From an uncultured Fodinibius sp. (GTDB taxonomy: Bacteria; Bacteroidota; Rhodothermia; Balneolales; Balneolaceae): a stretch of 64,000 bases of DNA. Made by a program: the position numbers and the translations under genes. Below are positions 4,656 to 44,201 of this stretch, piece by piece; position 1 is the stretch's first letter; every line of letters starts with the position of its first letter. The DNA lies in NCBI GenBank assembly GCA_913056235.1, contig CAJXMW010000003.1, positions 124,001 through 188,000 of the forward strand, written 5' to 3'. Below the pieces are notes generated by a model. It made no database searches and was not told the origin of the DNA. It saw only the letters and a list, made by a program, of their open reading frames with translations.

Positions 4656-5720
4656 CTACGACTTATATTCGCGCGGAATTTTGGGATTGATACTTGTTAG
4701 TACTTCATAGGGAATAGTCTTAATCTTATCAGCCCAATTCCGCGCATTTTCCTCGGATCCCAGTATTTCCACTTCTGTTCCTGGCTCATATTGATCGAGG
4801 CCAAGATAAACCATACAGTAGTTCATCGTTATCGTACCCACTACCGGATACGCTTTATCATCGATACGAACAGAAATATTCCCTGTCAAGCTACGCTTGA
4901 TTCCATCATCATATCCTACAGGTAGGACTCCGAGATATCCATCCTGCGGAGCCTCCCAATTCGCACCATAGCTAACCGTGCTGTGAGCTGCAATACGTTT
5001 TGTCTGTACCAGCCGCGACTTCCACGATAGCACCGGTTCCAATGCCTCGATTTTCGTCTCTCCCGGCGGATACCCATAGAGACCAATCCCCAGCCGAACC
5101 ATATTAAACTGGTCAGTTTCGTAAAAAGCTGTTGCCCCGGTATTGGAAATATGTCCCGACAAACTATCATCAAAATATTTACGTATCGTCTTAAACTGAT
5201 CGTGCTGATTGACAACTAATTGTGAACCGGGATTGTCTGCCGTTGCATAGTGCGTATAAATGCCGGTACAAAATAGCTCCTGATTATCCTCAACCAACTG
5301 GGCAATCCGCTTAGCCTTTTCTGGAGGAAAGCCGAGTCGCCCCATGCCGGTATCAAAGTTAAGATGATATGAAGTGCCATTCGGTAGCCACTCAAAGTGT
5401 TCTTCCGAGCTGATCGTAGCGGTCAAATTATGCACGCGATATTGTGAAACCGATGACTGTTCGGGCACTTCAAAGACCAGGATTGGCTTAGTGATACCGT
5501 TCTCTCGGAGCTCAATACCTTCGTGAATATCATTAACGGCAAACGCCCCCACAAGCGGTTCCAGTGTTTCGGCCACCGGGACGGCCCCATGCCCATAGGC
5601 GTCGGCTTTAACGACCGCCATGATGCGGCTATTTTCGTCCACATGACAACGCAGGGTTTCAAGATTCTGCTTCAGCGTTGTAAGATTAACAGTTACGGTT
5701 GAATTTGACTTCTGAATCAT
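4656..5720 (-). CDS. alr: Alanine racemase
   Basis: 354 residues, PLP-dependent, fold-type III. It makes D-alanine for peptidoglycan. The PLP lysine is Lys38 in VVKADAYGHG and the second catalytic base is Tyr251 in TVSYGANW. The FDTGMGRLG barrel motif and MVRLGIGLYGYPPG are present, and the C-terminal beta domain contains the VGTITMNYCMV strand. It lies 13 bases downstream of a large FAD oxidoreductase gene on the same strand, so it is probably transcribed with it. This copy best fits the housekeeping racemase; two further racemase-fold genes occur at 25133 and 28262. Confidence 0.93.
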   Translation of the reverse strand: MIQKSNSTVTVNLTTLKQNLETLRCHVDENSRIMAVVKADAYGHGAVPVAETLEPLVGAFAVNDIHEGIELRENGITKPILVFEVPEQSSVSQYRVHNLTATISSEEHFEWLPNGTSYHLNFDTGMGRLGFPPEKAKRIAQLVEDNQELFCTGIYTHYATADNPGSQLVVNQHDQFKTIRKYFDDSLSGHISNTGATAFYETDQFNMVRLGIGLYGYPPGETKIEALEPVLSWKSRLVQTKRIAAHSTVSYGANWEAPQDGYLGVLPVGYDDGIKRSLTGNISVRIDDKAYPVVGTITMNYCMVYLGLDQYEPGTEVEILGSEENARNWADKIKTIPYEVLTSINPKIPREYKS

Positions 5721-25132: not shown

Positions 25133-26305
25133 TTAAACAATGTGCCGTGGAAGTATGGAGGGAATTTGCACCAACACTTCATAATTAAGGTTATTGCGCA
25201 TATTACTGAAAGATGACACCGTCATCTCCTGGTCACCCTGCTTGCCAATAATTACCACCTCATCACCTTTGGATACTTCCGGAATATCAGTGACATCCAC
25301 CGTAAGTAAATTCATATTTACCAGACCGGCCACAGGGGCACGTTTACCATTAATGAGCACAATACCCACATTGGTAAGATTACGCCCAAAGCCGTGCGAA
25401 TATCCAATAGGGACTGATGCAATGATCTCATCTCGACTGGTTAAGTACGTATTTCCATAGCCCACGAACTCTCCAGCCGACACTTTTTTAGTACTCATCA
25501 CATGGCTTTTCCAGCTTAATACGCGCTCAAGCGGATCTTTATGCTCTTTATCCACATCTGGATATCTTTTAACGAAGTTCATATAAGTTTCCCGATTGGG
25601 CCAAAATCCATATTGAGAAATGCCAATGCGAACCATATCCATAATCGTTTCCGGATAGTTTAGCGCCGATGCCGAACAGGCGGTATGTCTATGTTTTGCC
25701 TCGATACCGTGTTCTTCAAACCATGAACAGTACCCCTCAAAATTTTCGATCTGCTCTTTAATTCGTACATAGTTTCCCACGCTTTCGGCACCGGCATAAT
25801 GCGTACAAATACCATCTATTTGTAAATAGTCACTATTTTTCTGAATCAGTTTAACGGCGTCCTTAAATTCTTCATTTTCCAGCCCCAGACGGTTCATACC
25901 GGTTTCAAGATGCAAATGCACGCGTGCAGGTTTGCCAATACGCTTGGCCTCGCGGGCTGCAACCTCAAGCCGATCCAGCTCAAAAATAAAGAATGACACG
26001 TTCCGTTCGATGGCCCAACCCAGCGCCTCGTTACTGATCATACCCATAATCATGATGTGCGTCTCATCATGGTTGCTGGCCCGTGTAGCCTGACGAGCCT
26101 CATCAGAGCTAAAAACCGAAAAATGACGTACACCACAATCCTCGGCTAACGGCACGAAATGTTTGATGCCATGACCATACGCATTTCCCTTTATGACAGA
26201 GCTAAACACTACATCATTGCCGATATAATCCCTCAAAAACGAAACATTCTTTTCAAAAGCAGATTTGTCCAGTTCAATCCAAGAGGGGTATAACTCATTA
26301 TTCAT
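25133..26305 (-). CDS. Alanine racemase-family PLP enzyme, second copy
   Basis: 390 residues. PLP lysine Lys39 in VIKGNAYGHG and catalytic Tyr283 in FVGYGNTYL are both present, as are LETGMNRLG and the C-terminal beta domain (ASVPIGYSHGFGRNL, AGLVNMNLLTVDV). It is complete and differs clearly from alr at 4656. Differences such as KGNAYGHG for KADAYGHG and a longer middle insert mean that the substrate may not be alanine. Its start overlaps the stop of the M20 amidohydrolase gene by eight bases, so the two are translated from one mRNA. A catabolic or peptidoglycan-salvage role is inferred from that partnership. Confidence 0.85.
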   Translation of the reverse strand: MNNELYPSWIELDKSAFEKNVSFLRDYIGNDVVFSSVIKGNAYGHGIKHFVPLAEDCGVRHFSVFSSDEARQATRASNHDETHIMIMGMISNEALGWAIERNVSFFIFELDRLEVAAREAKRIGKPARVHLHLETGMNRLGLENEEFKDAVKLIQKNSDYLQIDGICTHYAGAESVGNYVRIKEQIENFEGYCSWFEEHGIEAKHRHTACSASALNYPETIMDMVRIGISQYGFWPNRETYMNFVKRYPDVDKEHKDPLERVLSWKSHVMSTKKVSAGEFVGYGNTYLTSRDEIIASVPIGYSHGFGRNLTNVGIVLINGKRAPVAGLVNMNLLTVDVTDIPEVSKGDEVVIIGKQGDQEMTVSSFSNMRNNLNYEVLVQIPSILPRHIV

Positions 26306-27464
26306 TATTATTACTACTACTTATTTCTGTTATTATTTGCATGAACATCGATATTCCCGTGGGGATTACCTCATCCTCAAAATCATAGCTCTCGGCATGC
26401 AGCGCAGGATGTTCTTCGCCAATACCAAGCCCAAACATCGCGCCGGGAATATCAGACGTGAAGTGCCCAAAATCTTCAGACCAACTAAAAGGACTCGGCT
26501 TTTCATATATATTGAGCTCCAACTTCTCTGCAGCTAACTGTACCAATTTATATCCATCCTTAGCATTTGTCGTGGCCGGAAACGGTTCGACCCATTCATA
26601 ATCCATTGACAATTCATAAGTCTCAGCCGTACGGCGAGCGATATCAAGACATTTTGTTTTCAGCTTTTCCAGCAGGTCGCCGTCATACGTCCGCAGTGTA
26701 GCCATAACTGTGGCCTTACCGGGTGATGTACCAAAAGCGCGTTCGCCCAGATTGGCATTGATAACCGTCACTTTGGCTGCCTTTTCCAGCGGGCTGTAGA
26801 ACTGCGGCGCCGATGAAAATGCCTGCACGGTTTGTGCCATGGCAAGTGCTGGGCTTTTCCCTTCTTCGGGATGAGCAGCATGCGCCGTACTTCCCTGGAA
26901 ATTAACAATCAGACCTACCGAAGCTGCTGCAAACACATCCTTGCGCATCACAAGCTGGTGTTTTTCGAAACCGGGTAGATTGTGAAGAGCAAAACAGTAA
27001 TCCAGATCGAGCTCTTGAAATTGTTCATCCTCAATAACACGCTCCGCTCCTTTCCCGGTCTCCTCGGCAGGTTGGAACAGCAGTGTGACTTTGCCGGATT
27101 GCAGTGTTCGTTGTTGCAGCAACCTGGCCACTCCACAGACCATAGCCATATGGCCGTCGTGGCCGCATTTATGACCAACGCCTTCGGTTTGTGATCGGTA
27201 GTCAACTTCGATTTGGTCTGAAATCGGCAGTGCATCGAGTTCGCAACGAATCAAGATATGTGGCCCCGCATTACCACTTGCGTACGTAGCTAAAATACCA
27301 TTACCTCCAACCCCTGTTTTCAATTGATCGGGCTTTGTCGATTCCAAGAAGTCGGCAATATATTCGCTTGTATCCTGCTCTTCGCCGGATACTTCTGCCA
27401 TAGCATGCAAGCGGTGACGAAGCTTCGTTATTTCGTCAAGATGTTGTTCGATATTGAAGGGCAT
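26298..27464 (-). CDS. M20-family amidohydrolase (M20D-like)
   Basis: 388 residues, cytoplasmic, no signal peptide. The metal-binding motif GVGHKCGHDGHMAMV, the catalytic-base region EETGKGAERVIED and the later EDFGHFTSDIPGAMFGLG are all visible. M20D enzymes remove acyl or aminoacyl groups from N-acyl-amino acids (hippurate, N-acetyl amino acids) and related amides. The exact substrate is unknown. The stop overlaps the start of the second racemase gene by eight bases, so hydrolysis of an amide and racemisation of the released amino acid may be linked. Confidence 0.87.
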   Translation of the reverse strand: MPFNIEQHLDEITKLRHRLHAMAEVSGEEQDTSEYIADFLESTKPDQLKTGVGGNGILATYASGNAGPHILIRCELDALPISDQIEVDYRSQTEGVGHKCGHDGHMAMVCGVARLLQQRTLQSGKVTLLFQPAEETGKGAERVIEDEQFQELDLDYCFALHNLPGFEKHQLVMRKDVFAAASVGLIVNFQGSTAHAAHPEEGKSPALAMAQTVQAFSSAPQFYSPLEKAAKVTVINANLGERAFGTSPGKATVMATLRTYDGDLLEKLKTKCLDIARRTAETYELSMDYEWVEPFPATTNAKDGYKLVQLAAEKLELNIYEKPSPFSWSEDFGHFTSDIPGAMFGLGIGEEHPALHAESYDFEDEVIPTGISMFMQIITEISSSNNNE

Positions 27465-27592
27465 ACTAGAAAATCTTAACTCAAATTGATACAGGGCTTA
27501 AGTAGAGAATTTTGCAGCAGAATTGCCAATTTGTTTAAAGCTGGAAGGTAGAAGTATGAGGAAAATTTCTTGCATTTTACTACTAGCTTAAA

Positions 27593-28189
27593 TCAATACA
27601 ATTCTCCTAAAACTAACCTGGGATCGGGAAATTTCTCCAATGCCTCTTCCCTGTTTTCTTCAGCAACCACGCCCGGCATATCGGCCTCACCGGGATCATC
27701 AACCGAGAGCTGGAAATGCAGGTGCGGCTCCCACCCCCCATTTACATCATTATCGCCCAGTGTAGCAATTTGTTGTCCTTTTTGGACGGGATCTCTTTCC
27801 GAAACCATCGCCAACGATTCCCGGGACAAGTGTCCGTATAAAGCATACAGCGATTGCCCACTAAGTTGATAGTGGATAACAATAGTGGGACCATAATCAC
27901 CGGGATTGTCATTTTCCCGCATATATAGAACTTGTCCATTGTAAAACGAATAGACTGGCTTACCGGTCGGAGCCCAGATATCAATGCCCATATGCACATT
28001 ACGCTCTCCCTCGAAGAGTTCGGTCTCGTACATATTGAAACGCTTCTCGTTGTATCGGCCAATACCCCACTTTTGATTCGGAATTGATTCAGGATGATAT
28101 CCTTTAGTAAAACCGAATACGTGAAACTGGGAATAATCCTCCGGGTAGTCCATCACCGGAGCAAAGTTGTACTTATTAAATTCGATCAT
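27593..28189 (-). CDS. M23-family metallopeptidase, apparently without a signal peptide
   Basis: 198 residues from the ATG at 28189. An upstream in-frame ATG at 28243 is rejected because the bases between form a terminator hairpin. The LytM/M23 core is present: HMGIDIWAPTGKPV supplies the first histidine and the aspartate, followed by LYGHLS and the closing HLHFQL. No signal peptide or membrane segment is visible, which is unusual for a cell-wall peptidase; it may be cytoplasmic. It lies between the ornithine-racemase-like gene and the M20 gene, suggesting a role in peptide or peptidoglycan fragment processing. Confidence 0.82.
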   Translation of the reverse strand: MIEFNKYNFAPVMDYPEDYSQFHVFGFTKGYHPESIPNQKWGIGRYNEKRFNMYETELFEGERNVHMGIDIWAPTGKPVYSFYNGQVLYMRENDNPGDYGPTIVIHYQLSGQSLYALYGHLSRESLAMVSERDPVQKGQQIATLGDNDVNGGWEPHLHFQLSVDDPGEADMPGVVAEENREEALEKFPDPRLVLGELY

Positions 28190-28206
28190 ATCTTCTAAAC
28201 AACACT

Positions 28207-28242
28207 TAAAAAGAAAATGCACCGCAGCAGAGCTACGGTGCA
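28207..28242 (-). terminator. Intrinsic terminator after the ornithine-racemase-like gene
   Basis: On the minus strand TGCACCG (28236-28242) pairs with CGGTGCA (28218-28224) around an 11-base loop, followed by the T-rich ATTTTCTTTTT (28217-28207). It begins about 20 bases past the stop at 28262. A relative of this hairpin, split by about 70 bases, occurs at 45388-45483. Confidence 0.8.
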
Positions 28243-28261
28243 AGATTAAAAATTGGAATAA

Positions 28262-29332
28262 TTACTCTACTATTTTATCGATGTAATCGGAGTTCATAAT
28301 CCCGAGAGCTCCCATGTATTTCATGCGGAAGCGGATAAAATCACCGACTTCATAGCCCGCTTTGTTATCCCCAACGTCGAGGATAAGCATATCAGAGCTG
28401 GCATCGGCTATTTCGACATCGTCTTCCACGTCAATAAGATGGTCGGGATTAATATCGAGATACCCAATATCCAGGATGGCGCGGTACGATGTTTTGCCAT
28501 AATCATCTTCATCAATTTCAGCTACTTCTCCCTGCGGATTCATGCCCAGATCGCCGCTGGGTACCTTGGGCTTTTCTGAGATCTCGATAATCTGGGTGTA
28601 CAGCTCCAGCACATCGTTATGCATGCCTTCTATAGTGCCATCAGTAAACAGGTTTTTACCAAAGAACAGCGCTTCTCCCACGCGAAAGTGATTCACACCC
28701 TCCGGCAACTGATTACGGAGCAAGAGTGGTATTGCCACCGTCGTACCGCCGGAAACAAGGGGAATCTTTTCATTGAATCGCAACTCAATAATCTGTTTAT
28801 ACAGCGATAACTGAATAAGCTTATCCTCATCCGGCATTACACCGTGCATGCAATTAAGATTGGCCCCAATGCCAATCACCTCAATATTCGGAAGTTTGAA
28901 GACATTCTCATAAAAATCGATCAGGTTTTCGCGGATCACGCCTTCCCGCAAATCCCCGAGCTCAATCATAATGATCACTTTGTGCACCTTATCTTGTCGC
29001 TGGGCTTCCTCGGAAAGTGCGTGCAGCGTAGCCATCTCAGTGTTAAGGCTAACATCGGCATACTTCACCACAGAATCGATAATATCCTTGGGCGGCGGCT
29101 TGATGTAGGTTGTGAGCGTCTCAGGATCGATCTCCTTGATCTTCTTGAGATTGCTCACGCGCGAATCCAGCATCTCACCAATGCCAAGATCAGCTACTTC
29201 TTTCAGGTATTCTTCATGCCCGCAAAGCAGCTTGGTTGTGATGCCCCACTTGATATCATTCTCTTTGAACAGGCTGTCAAGGTAGTTGTAATTATCACGA
29301 AGTTTGTCGCGATACAGTTTTAAATAGGCCAT
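28262..29332 (-). CDS. Alanine/ornithine racemase-family PLP enzyme (Orr-like)
   Basis: 356 residues. The fold-type III PLP barrel is recognisable, but it belongs to the ornithine racemase/YhfX branch rather than to Alr: the PLP lysine is Lys34 in GITTKLLCGHEE, then LGIGEMLDSRVSNLKKI, which follows the VTKxxCG and GDSRxxNLKK pattern of ornithine racemases. Further signs are VIMIELGDLREG and LVSGGTTVAIPLL. Ornithine is the suggested substrate, also because an ornithine aminotransferase gene lies at 31748. It is the last gene of the symporter-GNAT-racemase operon (three bases from the GNAT stop) and ends at a terminator. Confidence 0.78.
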   Translation of the reverse strand: MAYLKLYRDKLRDNYNYLDSLFKENDIKWGITTKLLCGHEEYLKEVADLGIGEMLDSRVSNLKKIKEIDPETLTTYIKPPPKDIIDSVVKYADVSLNTEMATLHALSEEAQRQDKVHKVIIMIELGDLREGVIRENLIDFYENVFKLPNIEVIGIGANLNCMHGVMPDEDKLIQLSLYKQIIELRFNEKIPLVSGGTTVAIPLLLRNQLPEGVNHFRVGEALFFGKNLFTDGTIEGMHNDVLELYTQIIEISEKPKVPSGDLGMNPQGEVAEIDEDDYGKTSYRAILDIGYLDINPDHLIDVEDDVEIADASSDMLILDVGDNKAGYEVGDFIRFRMKYMGALGIMNSDYIDKIVE

Positions 29333-29335
29333 TCC

Positions 29336-29779
29336 CTATTTCTTAAGTCGCATTTCAAGATACTTGTTCGTAAACCCGTATTTCTCGTACAGGTATTTCG
29401 CGGGATTATCGGGTTCAACATGTAAGGCAATATCGCCTTCAGTTGCTTCGATAATATGCTCCATCAACTTTTTGCCGAGCCCTTGCCCGCGGTAATCACC
29501 ATGAACAGCAATATATACCAAGATATGCTCGGGAATAAAGCCGCTCATGTTCGTATCGTTAATAATCACGGCGCCGACAATTTGTTCCTCTTCATGGGCA
29601 ACTAAAATAAAACCATCCTGTCCTTCATCATCGCCATAGGCAAAACCAATGCTTGACAAGATATGCTTTTTTTCATCGCCGTACTCATCGAGGTGATCGT
29701 AAAGAAACTCGGCGATATCCTGCCGACTAAAAGGTGTCGGATTCTCGATATCGGAATGTATTATATCAAATTCAATCAT
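29336..29779 (-). CDS. GNAT-family N-acetyltransferase
   Basis: 147 residues, one GNAT domain. The acetyl-CoA pyrophosphate loop VHGDYRGQGLGKKLM (motif A) lies near residue 95, and the C-terminal NPAKYLYEKYGFTNKYLEMRL is the usual closing tract. Strand LVYIAV before the loop is typical. The acceptor cannot be told from sequence. Its position between a symporter and an ornithine-racemase-like gene, with gaps of three bases on each side, suggests that an amino acid or small amine is acetylated. Confidence 0.85.
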   Translation of the reverse strand: MIEFDIIHSDIENPTPFSRQDIAEFLYDHLDEYGDEKKHILSSIGFAYGDDEGQDGFILVAHEEEQIVGAVIINDTNMSGFIPEHILVYIAVHGDYRGQGLGKKLMEHIIEATEGDIALHVEPDNPAKYLYEKYGFTNKYLEMRLKK

Positions 29780-29782
29780 TTA

Positions 29783-31273
29783 TTAACTACTAATAGTATT
29801 CACATTTTCCATTTCCTGTACTTTAGCGCCAGTTGGCCCGTCGTTATCAGGAAAAGTTAATGAAAGTCCAATAAACACAATAGCAGAAACCGTAATTCCA
29901 AAGACATTAGCATCCAGACCGGCGGGTAACTTGTCGAGGAAAACCTCTAGACAAACTGTTGTTGTTCCACCTAAAATCATGGCACCAATGGCTCCAATAC
30001 TGCTACTTTTACGCCAGTAGAATGCACCCAAGATGGGCACAAACAGACCTGAAACCATAAAGGCATAAGAATACAGCATCAGAGTTAACACATTAGTCAT
30101 TGTAGTAGCCACCAACAGTGCAATGATACCGATGACCAGTGTGGTGACCTGCGAAAATTTCAGAAACTGATCGCTATCGTGATCAACATCTTTAAAATAC
30201 CCAATAATATCGGAAACTACATTACCGGATGCTGCCATCAAGCAACTATCGGCAGTGGACAGAATTGCCGAAAAATACGCACTCATCATAATACCCATCA
30301 GTCCCACGGGTAAAACCGTTCGAAGCAGCATCGGCAGTCCCTTTTCGCTGTCAAAGTTGGCAACAGTTTCAGGTACGCCGAGGTAATCGAACATCCCCTG
30401 CATAAAGGCTACTTTAGCAAACAAGCCCAACAATATGCCCATGAAGGCCATAACCGGCCACTCAAAAAGTCCGGCCAAAAACCAGGCCTTTTTTGCTGTT
30501 TCTTCATCATTGCAGGCGTAGATACGCTGGTAGAGCGTCATTCCCACAAACCATATGGGCAGTACGGTAACAGTCCAATACACTACGTCTTGCCACGTCA
30601 TATTGGTCATGGTGAGCATTGCCGGATCCACCGCCTTGGAGATGGCTTCCCATCCGCCAATAGCAGTATACGAAACGGGGATACCGATAAATACCAATCC
30701 GATCATCAAAATAGCCCATTGCACAGTATCAGTATAGATAACGGCTTTGAGCCCGCCCATTACGGTATAAAGAACGGCCACACCTCCCATGATAATAAGG
30801 GCGGTGGTGAGGTCCAGATTGGCAAAAGTGCCGGTAGCCAGTTTAGCACCAGCCAAAATTTGTGAGCTGGTAAATCCCGCGTAACCAATAGCCGAAATAA
30901 TACCGGCAACGAGGGCTACATGCGGATTAAAATAATACTTAAAAACTTCTGGGAAGGTAAACGCCGTATCAAAAACCTTGTTACCTTTAACTTTGGGGAT
31001 CAGCAAAACAGCTGAAATCCATGCCCCCAGCAGGCCGGTAAATAACATCCACGAGCCGGATAGCCCCATTACAAAACCAAGACCACCAAGCCCGATGGAA
31101 AATCCGCCGCCAACATCTGTTGCTACTACCGATAGCCCCACATGCAGGCTGCTCATTTCTCTACCGCCAACATAATAGTCATCAGCGCCTTCATTCTTGT
31201 TTAGAAAGAATACTCCAAAACCCAACAATCCTACCATGTATAGACCAAAAATCGTCAGGTCAATCCAATGCAT
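29783..31273 (-). CDS. Sodium:solute symporter family transporter (SSS)
   Basis: 496 residues with about 13 membrane helices. The SSS family is recognised by the opening helix followed by YYVGGREMSSLHVGLSVVATDVGGG, the GLGFVMGLSGSWM stretch and the AYFSAILSTADSCLMAASGNVVSDI motif with the sodium-site serines. Such carriers import proline, pantothenate, sugars or other small solutes with sodium. It is the first gene of a tightly packed operon with a GNAT and an ornithine-racemase-like enzyme, so an amino-acid substrate is inferred. A terminator for bactofilin precedes it, so its promoter should lie within about 30 bases. Confidence 0.9.
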   Translation of the reverse strand: MHWIDLTIFGLYMVGLLGFGVFFLNKNEGADDYYVGGREMSSLHVGLSVVATDVGGGFSIGLGGLGFVMGLSGSWMLFTGLLGAWISAVLLIPKVKGNKVFDTAFTFPEVFKYYFNPHVALVAGIISAIGYAGFTSSQILAGAKLATGTFANLDLTTALIIMGGVAVLYTVMGGLKAVIYTDTVQWAILMIGLVFIGIPVSYTAIGGWEAISKAVDPAMLTMTNMTWQDVVYWTVTVLPIWFVGMTLYQRIYACNDEETAKKAWFLAGLFEWPVMAFMGILLGLFAKVAFMQGMFDYLGVPETVANFDSEKGLPMLLRTVLPVGLMGIMMSAYFSAILSTADSCLMAASGNVVSDIIGYFKDVDHDSDQFLKFSQVTTLVIGIIALLVATTMTNVLTLMLYSYAFMVSGLFVPILGAFYWRKSSSIGAIGAMILGGTTTVCLEVFLDKLPAGLDANVFGITVSAIVFIGLSLTFPDNDGPTGAKVQEMENVNTISS

Positions 31274-31304
31274 ACGTTACAATCTAAATTGGACTTATTT
31301 CTAA

Positions 31305-31340
31305 TAAAAAAACCCTTGAGTAAAGTACTCAAGGGTTAGT
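31305..31340 (-). terminator. Strong intrinsic terminator after bactofilin (possibly bidirectional)
   Basis: AACCCTTGAGTA (31311-31322) pairs with TACTCAAGGGTT (31326-31337) around three bases. On the minus strand a T-run follows the stem directly (plus strand AAAAAAA at 31306-31312), and the plus strand shows AGTTTTT after it. It ends the bactofilin transcript and separates it from the symporter operon. Confidence 0.9.
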
Positions 31341-31396
31341 TTTTAATGCACTAAATATATACCTAAATGTTTGAAAATACCAAATTTCTACTCGGC

Positions 31397-31621
31397 CTAA
31401 CTTTCTCCATTCTGCAGGGTTATCTGGCCATTGAAAACAGCCCCCTCTTCGACCATCAGTTTTTTGGCATTTATAGTGGCCTCGATTCGAGCTGATTGCT
31501 TGAGTAACACCTTTCCCGCCGCCACTATTTCTCCATTGAATGCTCCTGCTACAATTACGTTTTCCGTTGTAAGCTCACCCTCAACCGTCGTCTCTTTATC
31601 AAAATATGTATCGTTTGCCAT
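31397..31621 (-). CDS. Short bactofilin-family protein
   Basis: 74 residues, much shorter than usual bactofilins (about 110-200). The repeat rhythm of a right-handed beta helix is clear: VEGELTTENVIVAGAFNGEI, then VLLKQSARIEATINAKKLMVEEGAVFNGQI. Bactofilins polymerise into filaments without nucleotide and support cell shape or membrane-associated structures. The protein is little more than a few windings of the core, with hardly any tail. The gene has its own strong terminator. It is divergent from the ornithine aminotransferase gene. Confidence 0.78.
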   Translation of the reverse strand: MANDTYFDKETTVEGELTTENVIVAGAFNGEIVAAGKVLLKQSARIEATINAKKLMVEEGAVFNGQITLQNGES

Positions 31622-31747
31622 AATGTACCCTGCAGATAAGATGTACTAATAATTATGCTTACTGAAACCCAATGATAAATACCGGTTTTACTTCACTTAT
31701 TAAGATCATATCTTCCCAGCAAATATCAAATTGGAAAATCCTTATAT

Positions 31748-32983
31748 ATGATAACCACGCAAGAAGCGATCGACCTCGAAGACAAGTTTGGTGCTCATAA
31801 TTATCATCCCCTGCCAGTGGTATTGGCCAAAGGTGAAGGGGTAAACGTCTGGGATCCTGAGGGCAACAAATACTACGATTTCCTGTCGGCCTACTCGGCA
31901 GTTAACCAGGGGCACTGCCACCCGCGAATTGTAAACAAGCTAAAACAGCAGGCTGAGAAGCTTACATTGGTTTCGCGGGCTTTTTACAGTGATCAGCTCG
32001 GCGCCTACGAAGAATATATGAACGATCTCTTTGGATATGATAAGCTACTGCCAATGAATACCGGCGCCGAAGGCGTGGAAACAGCCATCAAACTCTGCCG
32101 CAAATGGTCGTACGAGAAAAAGAATCTTACGCCCAAAAAAGCTACTATCATTGTAGCCAAGGGTAATTTTCACGGACGCACAACCAGTATTATATCATTC
32201 TCCAACGACCCTGTAGCCCGAGAGAACTTTGGCCCCTACACTCCGGGCTTTGTGTCAATTCCTTATGACGATCTCGATGCCCTGGAACAGGCGCTGCAAG
32301 AAAAAGATGTGGCCGGATTTTTGGTCGAGCCCATCCAGGGAGAGGCCGGTGTTGTCGTTCCCAGCGAAGGATACCTGAAAAAAGCGGCTGAACTATGTCA
32401 AAAGCACAACGTCCTTTTTATTGCGGATGAAATTCAGACCGGCATTGCCCGCACCGGAGAAATGCTGTGTGTGGATCACGAAGATGTTCGTCCCGATATT
32501 GTAATTCTCGGTAAAGCGCTCTCCGGCGGCGCCTACCCGGTATCTGCGGTGATGGCCGACGACAATATTATGGATTCCATGCGTCCCGGCGTTCACGGCT
32601 CCACCTACGGCGGTAATCCACTAGCTTGTGCCGTGGCCATGGAAGCACTAAAAGTTGTAGAAGATGAAGGATTAGCTGAAAATGCGGACAAATTAGGTCA
32701 ACTGTTTCGCGATGAGATGAACAATCTCGTCGAGGAGTCGAACCTGGTGAATCTCGTACGAGGCAAAGGCCTACTGAATGCTATTGTAATCAATGATTCG
32801 GAGGAGAGCGACACGGCTTGGAACATCTGCCTGAAGCTGAAAGAAAACGGACTACTGGCTAAACCCACCCACGGTAATATCATCCGCTTTGCACCACCGC
32901 TGGTGATGACTGAAGAGCAGCTACAGGATTGCATCTCTATTATTAAGGACACGATCCATTCGTACGAGAAGGCAAATGCGTAA
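31748..32983 (+). CDS. rocD: Ornithine--oxo-acid aminotransferase
   Basis: 411 residues, class III PLP aminotransferase. It converts L-ornithine and 2-oxoglutarate into glutamate-5-semialdehyde and glutamate. Asp227 in [13 protein letters not shown] and the PLP lysine Lys256 in [16 protein letters not shown] are present, with the [15 protein letters not shown] and HGSTYGGNP motifs that are characteristic of RocD. The end is complete. Together with the ornithine-racemase-like gene at 28262 it could drain D- and L-ornithine into glutamate. A hairpin at 32993-33030 follows the stop. Confidence 0.93.
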
Positions 32984-42851: not shown

Positions 42852-44201
42852 ATGTCCACCGATAAAGAGGTATCTGCCGCACAAGTTCACAAGATTCTAC
42901 AAAAACATATTCTAACCGACGGTTACGACATTGTGCTCGATCTCGAAAATAGTGAAGGAGCTTACCTTTATGATGCCAAGAGCGGTGAGCGCTACCTCGA
43001 CTTTTTTACCTTTTTTGCCTCCAATCCGCTGGGTATGAATCACCCGCGCCTGGCCAACGATGAATTTCAAAACAAGATCGGCAAGGTGGCCATCAACAAG
43101 CCATCGAACTCGGATATATATACTGAAGAGATGGCCGAGTTTGTTGACAATTTTGACCGTGTGGGCATCCCTGACTACCTGCCTTACTCCTTCTTTATTT
43201 CCGGCGGTGCCCTAGCCGTAGAAAACGCTCTCAAAGTAGCCTTCGACTGGAAAGTGCAAAAGAATTTTGAAAAAGGATATCGGCAGGAGAAAGGTCACAA
43301 AGTACTTCACCTGGAGCAGGCTTTCCACGGCCGATCGGGATACACGATGTCGCTGACCAACACTGATCCCACCAAAACCAAATATTTTCCCAAGTTCGAC
43401 TGGCCGCGGATCATCTCTCCCGCTATGAATTATCCGGCTACGGACGAAAATATCCGTCAAACAGTGCAAAATGAAGAACGGGCTATTGCACAGGCCGAAC
43501 GATATTTTGAAATGTACAAAGATGAGATTGCCTGTATCATCCTGGAACCAATTCAGGGCGAAGGTGGCGACCGACATTTCCGGAAAGAATTTCACCAGGC
43601 ATTGCGCAACCTTGCGGACGAACACGAAGTGCTTCTGATATACGACGAAGTTCAAACCGGTGTGGGACTAACCGGCAAATTCTGGGCACATGAGCACTAC
43701 GTAAAGCCCGACATCCTGGCTTTCGGTAAAAAAGCACAGGTCTGTGGTATCTTAGCCAGCAAGCGCGTCGATGATATTGAGACCAACTGCTTTCACGTCT
43801 CTTCGCGCATTAATTCTACATGGGGCGGCAATCTGGTGGATATGGTTCGCTTCGGGCGTATCCTGCAAATAATTGAAGAGGAAAATCTCGTCGAAAACGC
43901 CGCTACGGTGGGCGATTACCTGCAAGAAAAAATACGCGGCTTGGCTCAGCAATTTGAACACGCCACAAATCCCCGGGGCAAGGGACTGTTCTGCGCAATC
44001 GATTTTCCAAACACTCATGTGAGAGATGCCGTTATCAAAGAATGCGCCAACAATAACTTGATGATTCTCTCTTGCGGGACAAAGACGATGCGATTCCGTC
44101 CGCCGTTGACGGTTACCAAAGAGCATATCGACGAGGGCATCGAGATCATCGAAAAATCGATCAAATCAGCAATGGAAGAATGCCCGGCTGTCACAGTTTA
44201 A
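42852..44201 (+). CDS. lat: L-lysine 6-aminotransferase
   Basis: 449 residues, class III PLP aminotransferase. It moves the epsilon-amino group of lysine to 2-oxoglutarate, giving 2-aminoadipate-6-semialdehyde (piperideine-6-carboxylate). The family-specific stretches are LDFFTFFASNPLGMNHPRL, SSRINSTWGGNLVDM and the PLP lysine Lys293 in ILAFGKKAQVCG, with Asp265 in LLIYDEVQTGVGLTG. A strong AGGAGG ribosome site (42843-42848) precedes the ATG. No downstream aminoadipate-semialdehyde dehydrogenase is adjacent. The gene converges with an SDR gene across an 80-base repeat-like hairpin. Confidence 0.92.
   Translation: MSTDKEVSAAQVHKILQKHILTDGYDIVLDLENSEGAYLYDAKSGERYLDFFTFFASNPLGMNHPRLANDEFQNKIGKVAINKPSNSDIYTEEMAEFVDNFDRVGIPDYLPYSFFISGGALAVENALKVAFDWKVQKNFEKGYRQEKGHKVLHLEQAFHGRSGYTMSLTNTDPTKTKYFPKFDWPRIISPAMNYPATDENIRQTVQNEERAIAQAERYFEMYKDEIACIILEPIQGEGGDRHFRKEFHQALRNLADEHEVLLIYDEVQTGVGLTGKFWAHEHYVKPDILAFGKKAQVCGILASKRVDDIETNCFHVSSRINSTWGGNLVDMVRFGRILQIIEEENLVENAATVGDYLQEKIRGLAQQFEHATNPRGKGLFCAIDFPNTHVRDAVIKECANNNLMILSCGTKTMRFRPPLTVTKEHIDEGIEIIEKSIKSAMEECPAVTV

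Follow-up and report, generated by a model that had tools for sequence, protein, structure and literature searches.

What would a bacterium do with a gene cluster that joins two racemase-fold enzymes to an acetyltransferase, two hydrolases and a symporter? The question is raised by a locus of an uncultured Fodinibius sp. (Balneolaceae), analysed here within a window of 64,000 nucleotides (the whole stretch of DNA studied, positions 124,001 to 188,000 of contig CAJXMW010000003.1). The locus occupies 31273 to 25133 of the minus strand and encodes, in this order, a sodium:solute symporter (SSF), a GNAT acetyltransferase, a pyridoxal 5'-phosphate (PLP) enzyme resembling ornithine racemase (Orr), an M23 protein, an M20 amidohydrolase and Alr2, an alanine-racemase-type PLP enzyme; rocD, the gene of ornithine aminotransferase (RocD), lies on the opposite strand. 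The symporter and GNAT genes, and likewise the GNAT and Orr-like genes, are 3 bases apart, gaps of 72 and 128 bases follow on either side of the M23 gene, and the M20 and Alr2 genes overlap by eight bases. An earlier, sequence-only reading had given the gene positions and order, the 3-base gaps, the eight-base overlap and the strand of rocD exactly so, and had interpreted the cluster as a route by which D-ornithine or other D-amino acids, perhaps from peptidoglycan fragments or N-acylated forms, are imported, racemised and drained by RocD into glutamate. What survives of that interpretation is one recurring cluster and the grouping of the Orr-like enzyme with ornithine racemases; the name of a true ornithine racemase, the specificity of RocD and the wall role of M23 are not supported.

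The six genes make up a recurrent module with two separable halves, the accessory half being looser than the core. The core comprises the genes of the symporter (29783..31273; PF00474, E 4.6e-49), the GNAT protein (29336..29779; PF13508) and the Orr-like fold-type III PLP enzyme (28262..29332), and the accessory half those of the M23 protein (27593..28189; PF01551, 68 bits against a cut-off of 28.7), the M20 amidohydrolase (26298..27464; TIGR01891, 239.3 bits against 153.75) and Alr2 (25133..26305; TIGR00492, 273.4 bits against 168). On the border, also on the minus strand, a terminator-like hairpin (28218..28242; 11 pairs, 7 of them G-C, then TTTTCTTTTT) sets the two halves apart in the window, although this is a pattern match and not proof of function. 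Conservation was surveyed in 92 Balneolaceae genomes, 46 of which have an Orr match, and in a phylum sample of 394 genomes, searched for GNAT, the Orr-like clade and Alr2. Sixty Orr loci were fetched, 42 from genomes outside the family (match better than 1e-50) and 18 from the 46 Orr-bearing family genomes; 58 belong to the GNAT-paired clade described below and two do not. A neighbouring gene was counted if it lay no more than 10 kb from Orr and reached an identity threshold of 35 to 45%; for the symporter the threshold was 45%, and the same strand was required.

All six genes are found within these 10 kb in 14 of the 18 Balneolaceae loci, in most of the 14 in the order of the window, and other families have subsets of the six, so the cluster is not a chance arrangement. 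The symporter is present in 41, M20 in 28, Alr2 in 25 and M23 in 24 of the 60 fetched loci. By family, M23 is near Orr in 18/18 loci of f1, 3/4 of f2, 2/2 of f3 and 1/11 of f24. A third family-level background (locus L162) has one tight run of M23, GNAT, Orr, SSF, M20 and Alr2, one Balneolaceae locus (L170) has M23, M20 and Alr2 on the opposite side of the core, and in family f26 the GNAT-Orr pair stands without other module genes nearby in all four loci. The six-gene set occurs in salt-loving bacteria and its parts are scattered widely through the phylum. The sequence-only reading is thus not refuted on its own terms, separation of the genes in relatives together with a grouping of the 28262 protein away from ornithine racemases, although the halves do separate in some genomes.

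The tightest association is that of the acetyltransferase with the Orr-like enzyme. In the phylum sample, GNAT (model A2) is found at E 1e-25 in 61 genomes (weakest match 1.2e-46) and the Orr-like clade in 60, with 60 genomes common to both (Fisher p ~1e-70, kinship ignored). These counts leave out nine weak cases among the 71 genomes with an Orr match (best match E 9.8e-8 to 5.6e-4) and two non-clade genomes, G228 and G396, that were excluded before the GNAT count; with the latter two included, GNAT is present in 60 of 62. All 58 clade loci have a GNAT gene on the strand of Orr and no more than 10 kb from it; the two non-clade loci have none there. GNAT and the Orr-like enzyme are a near-obligate pair, and GNAT is the strictest partner. 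The single GNAT outside the pair, in genome G159 (L231:9532-9972), has neither Orr nor the symporter beside it and adjoins genes read as succinate dehydrogenase; it looks like a remnant after loss, because locus L098 has SSF, GNAT and Orr at the corresponding place.

A racemase and an acetyltransferase would also be a minimal producer pair, and the solitary GNAT-Orr pairs of f26 fit a biosynthetic scheme in which a D-amino acid produced by the Orr-like enzyme is capped by GNAT and the resulting N-acetyl-D-amino acid serves as a solute, wall part or signal, the remaining genes being for salvage. This scheme is improbable, given the same-strand symporter in 41 of the 60 loci, the assignment of M20 and M23 to hydrolase families and the occurrence of the genes outside halophiles as well (Chryseobacterium).

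Alr2 follows the core without being bound to it. At E 1e-75 it is found in 42 of the 394 genomes, all of them among the 60 that have the GNAT-Orr pair, so that in this sample Alr2 is seen solely with the core, a case of dependence without linkage. Among the Balneolaceae, an Alr2 match at E 1e-100 is present in 42 of the 46 Orr-bearing and three of the 46 Orr-less genomes; matches of 44-47% identity include a paralogue, which is also the full-length match of G069, and the counts for G069, and perhaps for G077 and G260, may rest on it. In several genomes Alr2 lies far from Orr or on another contig. Fourteen such stretches were read and 12 used, one (L260) having no Alr2 frame by the filter and another (L264) holding the paralogue in a different gene set. 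M20 adjoins Alr2 in six of the 12 places, M23 in two and neither in five; the two with M23 are L253, with the run M23-M20-Alr2, and L256, with Alr2 and M23 and no M20. The paralogue itself (44-46% identity) belongs to a second trio (L234:7049-11762, L235:5294-9710, L237:4500-9453 and L264:3292-7799), its partners being a protein of ~404 residues, with an ATP-grasp domain (PF13535) in L235, the one tested, and a protein of ~660 residues without a Pfam match (L235).

The identity of the Orr-like enzyme is central to any functional assignment. The sequence-only reading had placed it in the ornithine racemase branch, and the tree (66 rows, of which 55 are thinned clade rows) agrees with this insofar as the protein encoded at 28262 is nearest to Orr. 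The GNAT-paired proteins form one clade (55 rows, support 100/100), far from YhfX and Alr, and their neighbours are Orr of Acetoanaerobium and Orr of a Mycoplasmatota locus with OraE, OrtA, OrtB and Ord, although the joining branches are weak (93/72 to L108, 87/2 to L192). Membership in Orr proper is not supported. Orr (NF040742) is the sole NCBIfam model that the enzyme matches, at 317.7 bits, under the cut-off of 480; other clade members score 254.7 (L162) and 317.7 (L102), compared with 533.7 for Acetoanaerobium Orr and 462.4, also below the cut-off, for Orr at the OraE locus. The named records nearest to the protein come from Fodinibius/Aliifodinibius genomes.

The residues that set the clade apart were identified by comparing 100 clade rows, which are not independent (they come from two overlapping collections, with some genomes present twice), with 14 rows from outside the clade; these come from Bacillota, Mycoplasmatota, Fusobacteriota, Pseudomonadota and the phylum to which the window belongs. 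Position 315 is Met in 99 clade rows and Ile in one, versus His in 14/14 outside, so that the motif SSDH becomes SSDM or SSDI, and position 78 is Lys in 100/100 versus Arg in 14/14. Additionally, position 288 is Asp in the 100 clade rows versus Ala, Asn or Gly, position 292 is Leu, Ile or Met versus Gln, Glu or Ala, and position 76 is Tyr or Phe versus Leu or Met. Kept in all rows of both sets are K34, which is the PLP lysine by its motif, and R58, R129, N158, C161, S194, R217, E250, K254, S313, D314 and Y339. A profile alignment that is weak overall (E 0.028) aligns SSDM with an alanine racemase loop, C-M-D-Q, that holds the active-site residues C311-M312-D313. Placed by alignment, the clade-specific residues would lie near the pocket; for residue 78 this is suggested by its position at the end of a barrel strand. 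H315 and R78, common to all Orr-family rows compared outside the clade, may be residues that define Orr. We conclude that the enzyme is probably an Orr relative with a re-made pocket, and 'ornithine racemase' is not a safe name for it.

The predicted structure (predicted local distance difference test score, pLDDT, 90.8) has the full two-domain fold. A single-sequence search found no solved relatives at E 0.001, and an alignment profile gave weak matches. In the structure comparison, the top racemases are tied within one Z unit, namely the broad-specificity racemase Bar (Z 27.6, root mean square deviation (rmsd) 3.0, 324 residues aligned), alanine racemases (Z 27.5 and 27.1) and a lysine racemase (Z 27.0, rmsd 3.0, 325 aligned), with D-threonine aldolase just behind (Z 26.0, rmsd 3.0, 313 aligned). 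Chemistry of the racemase, aldolase or dehydratase kind would thus all be compatible with the fold, and even the assignment as a racemase is an inference.

The sole model match, the closeness in the tree to Acetoanaerobium Orr and to the Orr of the OraE locus, and the start of rocD only 2.4 kb from that of the Orr-like gene would suit a true ornithine racemase, which would turn imported D-ornithine into L-ornithine for RocD to drain to glutamate. We consider this unlikely, since residues 315 and 78 differ throughout the clade from those of all outside rows, the strictest partner, GNAT, is left without an explanation, and many genomes that lack Orr have RocD. OraE, moreover, has no match at E 0.001 in the window's genome (98.4% complete), a result that rests on a protein search with a control, the same query finding itself in its own genome; Pfam models for OraS/OraE-type families matched no control genome and were left unused. 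Records of the wider family carry the names alanine racemase or alanine/ornithine racemase, and if the clade acts on another substrate, or only together with its GNAT, many Bacteroidota and Balneolota genomes are misannotated in this way. The family also has a longer, 595-residue form (L191:5968-7755 and L196), which on an annotated Roseateles plasmid is clustered with 5-guanidino-2-oxopentanoate decarboxylase, D-amino acid dehydrogenase and RidA.

Several other GNAT models also match the partner acetyltransferase, and its ten solved matches are four protein N-terminal acetyltransferases (NAA30 at the top, NAA50 and two RimI), three glucosamine-phosphate acetyltransferases and three unnamed by function. 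The N-terminal acetyltransferases, together with the near one-to-one occurrence of GNAT with a single enzyme, raise the prospect of protein modification, with GNAT acetylating the Orr-like enzyme, at an N-terminal Ala or Ser after Met removal or at K78, and thereby switching or stabilising it. Residue 2 is indeed Ala in 92, Ser in six and Gly in one of the clade rows, 99 in all, versus Pro in 8/8 of the outside rows compared. Still, Ala is common at position 2, where the N-terminal strand may need it, and the three sugar-phosphate acetyltransferases and the multiple matching models count against it; of the explanations weighed here, this one is the least probable.

The M23 protein is unusual for its family. 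The five His/Asp metal/catalytic residues of the HxxxD, H and HxH site are kept in 57/57 rows, and the structure search returns LytM/ShyA-type folds. The highest-scoring NCBIfam match is to the middle part of PRK06148 (117.5 bits for the window's protein, and 158.8, 142.0 and 157.4 bits for L162, L253 and L256, three loci of two other families), with which the protein shares positions outside the catalytic site, namely Y-E-R ahead of it and NG.W..H.H. In Sinorhizobium a single protein of 1008 residues contains the corresponding part, followed by a class-III aminotransferase part, and the first part of PRK06148-type proteins looks kinase-like ('phosphotransferase' in the annotation of one record). 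Export is not indicated: by hydropathy of the first 45 residues, none of the 56 M23 rows reaches the mark of 1.8, nor do any of 97 GNAT and 51 M20 rows, and only 1/48 Alr2 and 2/109 Orr-like rows do; the measure is a crude one that flags 23/25 SusC and 4/4 SusD controls, and by it the module proteins of the window, the symporter aside, are without a hydrophobic leader. The missing leader and the rhizobial fusion type, with its kinase-like part, M23 and aminotransferase, indicate that M23 is probably not an ordinary wall hydrolase; its best match is of a non-wall type, and the peptidoglycan-fragment role suggested for it in the sequence-only reading is not supported. The simplest reading is that M23 would be an intracellular protein of amino acid metabolism. 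If so, M23 proteins gain a role inside the cell; passages of PMC9662197 mention no M23 role of such kind.

The likelier start of the M23 gene is ATG 28189; TTG 28243 (a 216-codon frame) was rejected because this start overlaps the strong hairpin at 28242-28218. Elsewhere, a stand-alone PRK06148-type M23 gene of Vibrio tritonius (L186:6589-8495) overlaps a gene for an MFS transporter by four bases, and in G077 (C326:81-938) two adjoining M23 matches share a 304-codon open frame beside Orr, which reflects either partial duplication or faulty assembly.

The M23 fold with its complete site, and M20 and Alr beside it, could alternatively point to the use of wall fragments, M23 cutting a D-Ala-diamino acid amide inside the cell, Alr2 taking D-Ala and the Orr-like enzyme the D-centre of diaminopimelic acid (DAP) or D-lysine. 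According to passages of PMC9602339, Balneolaceae, along with Cyclobacteriaceae and Flavobacteriaceae, are among the families in DAP enrichments, which agrees with such a role, although the key enzyme in the four Pseudomonadota strains described there is LysA. With the leader lacking, a symporter of this type, and the same M23 fused elsewhere to a kinase-like part and an aminotransferase, wall-fragment use has a low probability.

For M20, the second model after TIGR01891 is DoeB2 (diaminobutanoate deacetylase), at 209.5 bits, under the cut-off of 550. Alr2 scores above the cut-off of the alanine racemase model and has K39, the PLP lysine, and Y283, presumably the catalytic Tyr to judge from the pattern, in 49/49 rows. 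Alr1, encoded at 4656, scores higher on TIGR00492 (309.4 bits versus 273.4) and has GYDDG where Alr2 has GYxHG, with His in 48/49 rows. An assignment of Alr2 to the lysine-racemase type, by the Asn that replaces the Asp of the C-M-D (CMD) loop, was rejected: Alr1 of the same genome also has TMN there, so the Asn is not diagnostic. Alr1, Alr2 and the Orr-like enzyme, the three fold-type III PLP barrels already recognised from the sequence, account for three of the genome's five matches to Ala_racemase_N. The symporter is below the cut-off for all eight NCBIfam models that it matches, the best being PutP (TIGR02121) with 158.4 of 515.5 bits.

Two aminotransferases could serve the module as downstream drains, RocD (31748..32983, plus strand; TIGR01885, 672.7 bits against a cut-off of 378.4) and L-lysine 6-transaminase (LAT; 42852..44201, plus strand; TIGR03251, 683.9 bits against 520.8). 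At E 1e-100, LAT is found in 84 and RocD in 67 of the 92 Balneolaceae genomes, compared with 46 for Orr; both are common in genomes without Orr and hence do not depend on the module, the notion that the presence of either tracks it was dropped, and RocD, the drain of the sequence-only reading, is weak evidence. In terms of position, LAT and Orr share a contig in 22 of the 46 Orr-bearing family genomes and lie no more than 22 kb apart in all 22. LAT is also near Orr in L094, and LAT matches at the far end of stretches L130 and L132 fall outside this count. The nearness of LAT suits a connection to lysine no less than one to ornithine.

Taken together, these observations lead us to favour, tentatively, a module that takes up an uncommon basic diamino acid and converts it, from D to L or by deacylation, for lysine/ornithine catabolism. 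That the substrate would be basic is suggested by Orr being the nearest family, by the Orr relative clustered with 5-guanidino-2-oxopentanoate decarboxylase and D-amino acid dehydrogenase, by LAT within 22 kb and by the DoeB2 match of M20. Candidate compounds are D-lysine and D-ornithine, whether free, N-acylated or bound in a peptide. The symporter would import the compound, M23 and M20 may release the amino acid from a small amide (a dipeptide or N-acyl form), and Alr2 and the Orr-like enzyme would invert or otherwise activate the alpha carbon via PLP. GNAT would acetylate the substrate or the product, most simply on an amino group, turning a reversible racemisation into a one-way one; M20 or a general deacylase would then give back the L-amino acid, with LAT as the presumed drain for L-lysine and RocD for L-ornithine. 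If this is true, the module would show how these bacteria recover basic amino acids, in D- or acylated form, from dead cell material.

Several points weigh against this uptake-and-conversion reading. A PLP racemase requires a free alpha-amino group; alpha-N-acylation before racemisation would not work for it, and acetylation would therefore have to follow inversion or be confined to the side chain. No amino acid acetyltransferase by name is among GNAT's ten solved matches. SSF carriers of known type are not known to carry peptides, so that M23 would have no obvious substrate among imported compounds. LAT and Orr are on different contigs in 20 of the 42 Orr-bearing genomes that have LAT, many of the assemblies being fragmented, and the nearness of LAT and RocD may be inherited gene order, because both occur without the module. 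Finally, 18 of the 60 core genomes have no Alr2 match at E 1e-75, and Alr2 matches without Orr in G047, G069 and G070 (84, 94 and 76% complete, with hundreds of contigs each) make its dependence on the core less than absolute. A bolder and more doubtful version of the proposal would see in the GNAT-paired clade a new PLP enzyme, distinct from ornithine racemase, that with its dedicated GNAT uses acetyl-CoA to drive the conversion of a basic D-amino acid in one direction, either by way of an intermediate acetylated on the side chain or by acetylating the product. It would be a PLP counterpart of the N-acylamino acid racemase route, and the PRK06148-type M23 would be an intracellular amidase of amino acid catabolism, giving that fold a function other than wall hydrolysis.

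Between the symporter gene and rocD lies a small gene for a bactofilin (31397-31621, minus strand; PF04519, 55.2 bits), followed by a hairpin with a T tail at 31337-31311. Riboswitch control was discarded, the sole Rfam match in the window at the gathering threshold being one tRNA. A phage origin was likewise set aside, with weak PHROGs matches for M23 and GNAT and none for the Orr-like protein at E 0.001.

No description of the module as such was found in the openly licensed literature searched, and the known systems each resemble it in part. Orr of clostridial ornithine fermentation (NF040742) shares with the Orr-like enzyme the family, the fold and the positions K34, DSR..NL, SGG, SSD and Tyr339, but has SSDH where the clade has SSDM, R78 where it has Lys, and OraE and OrtAB as partners in place of GNAT; the clade also has Tyr for Leu at 76, Asp mostly for Ala at 288 and Leu mostly for Gln at 292. 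On vibrio and roseobacter plasmids (L188, L189, L197, L198 and L200), genes for a DUF1611 protein and an Orr-like enzyme of the SSDH type overlap by four bases, the three roseobacter pairs being preceded by small unnamed genes. These pairs resemble the present one in that an Orr-family gene is tightly joined to another conserved gene, and differ from it in that the partner is a P-loop protein and the racemase has SSDH and R78.

In the N-succinylamino acid racemase pathway of Geobacillus, a GNAT succinyltransferase and an M20 desuccinylase work with N-succinylamino acid racemase. The likeness lies in GNAT, racemase and M20 occurring together, where acylation would make the D-to-L conversion one-way; the difference is that the racemases of the module are PLP enzymes that need a free alpha-amine, with no enolase-type racemase among the cluster genes. 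For a racemase in the catabolism of basic amino acids there is a precedent in the periplasmic broad-spectrum racemase Alr of Pseudomonas putida, which, according to the abstract of PMC6034422, serves Lys and Arg catabolism, and Bar is among the top solved folds of the Orr-like enzyme; that Alr is periplasmic, whereas no leader is seen on the module proteins, and the abstract mentions no GNAT, M20 or M23 partners. The PRK06148 proteins of rhizobia, lastly, combine a kinase-like part, M23 and a class III aminotransferase in one chain, and their M23 part carries the same Y-E-R and NG.W..H.H signature, whereas in the module M23 stands alone, next to racemases and an M20 enzyme.

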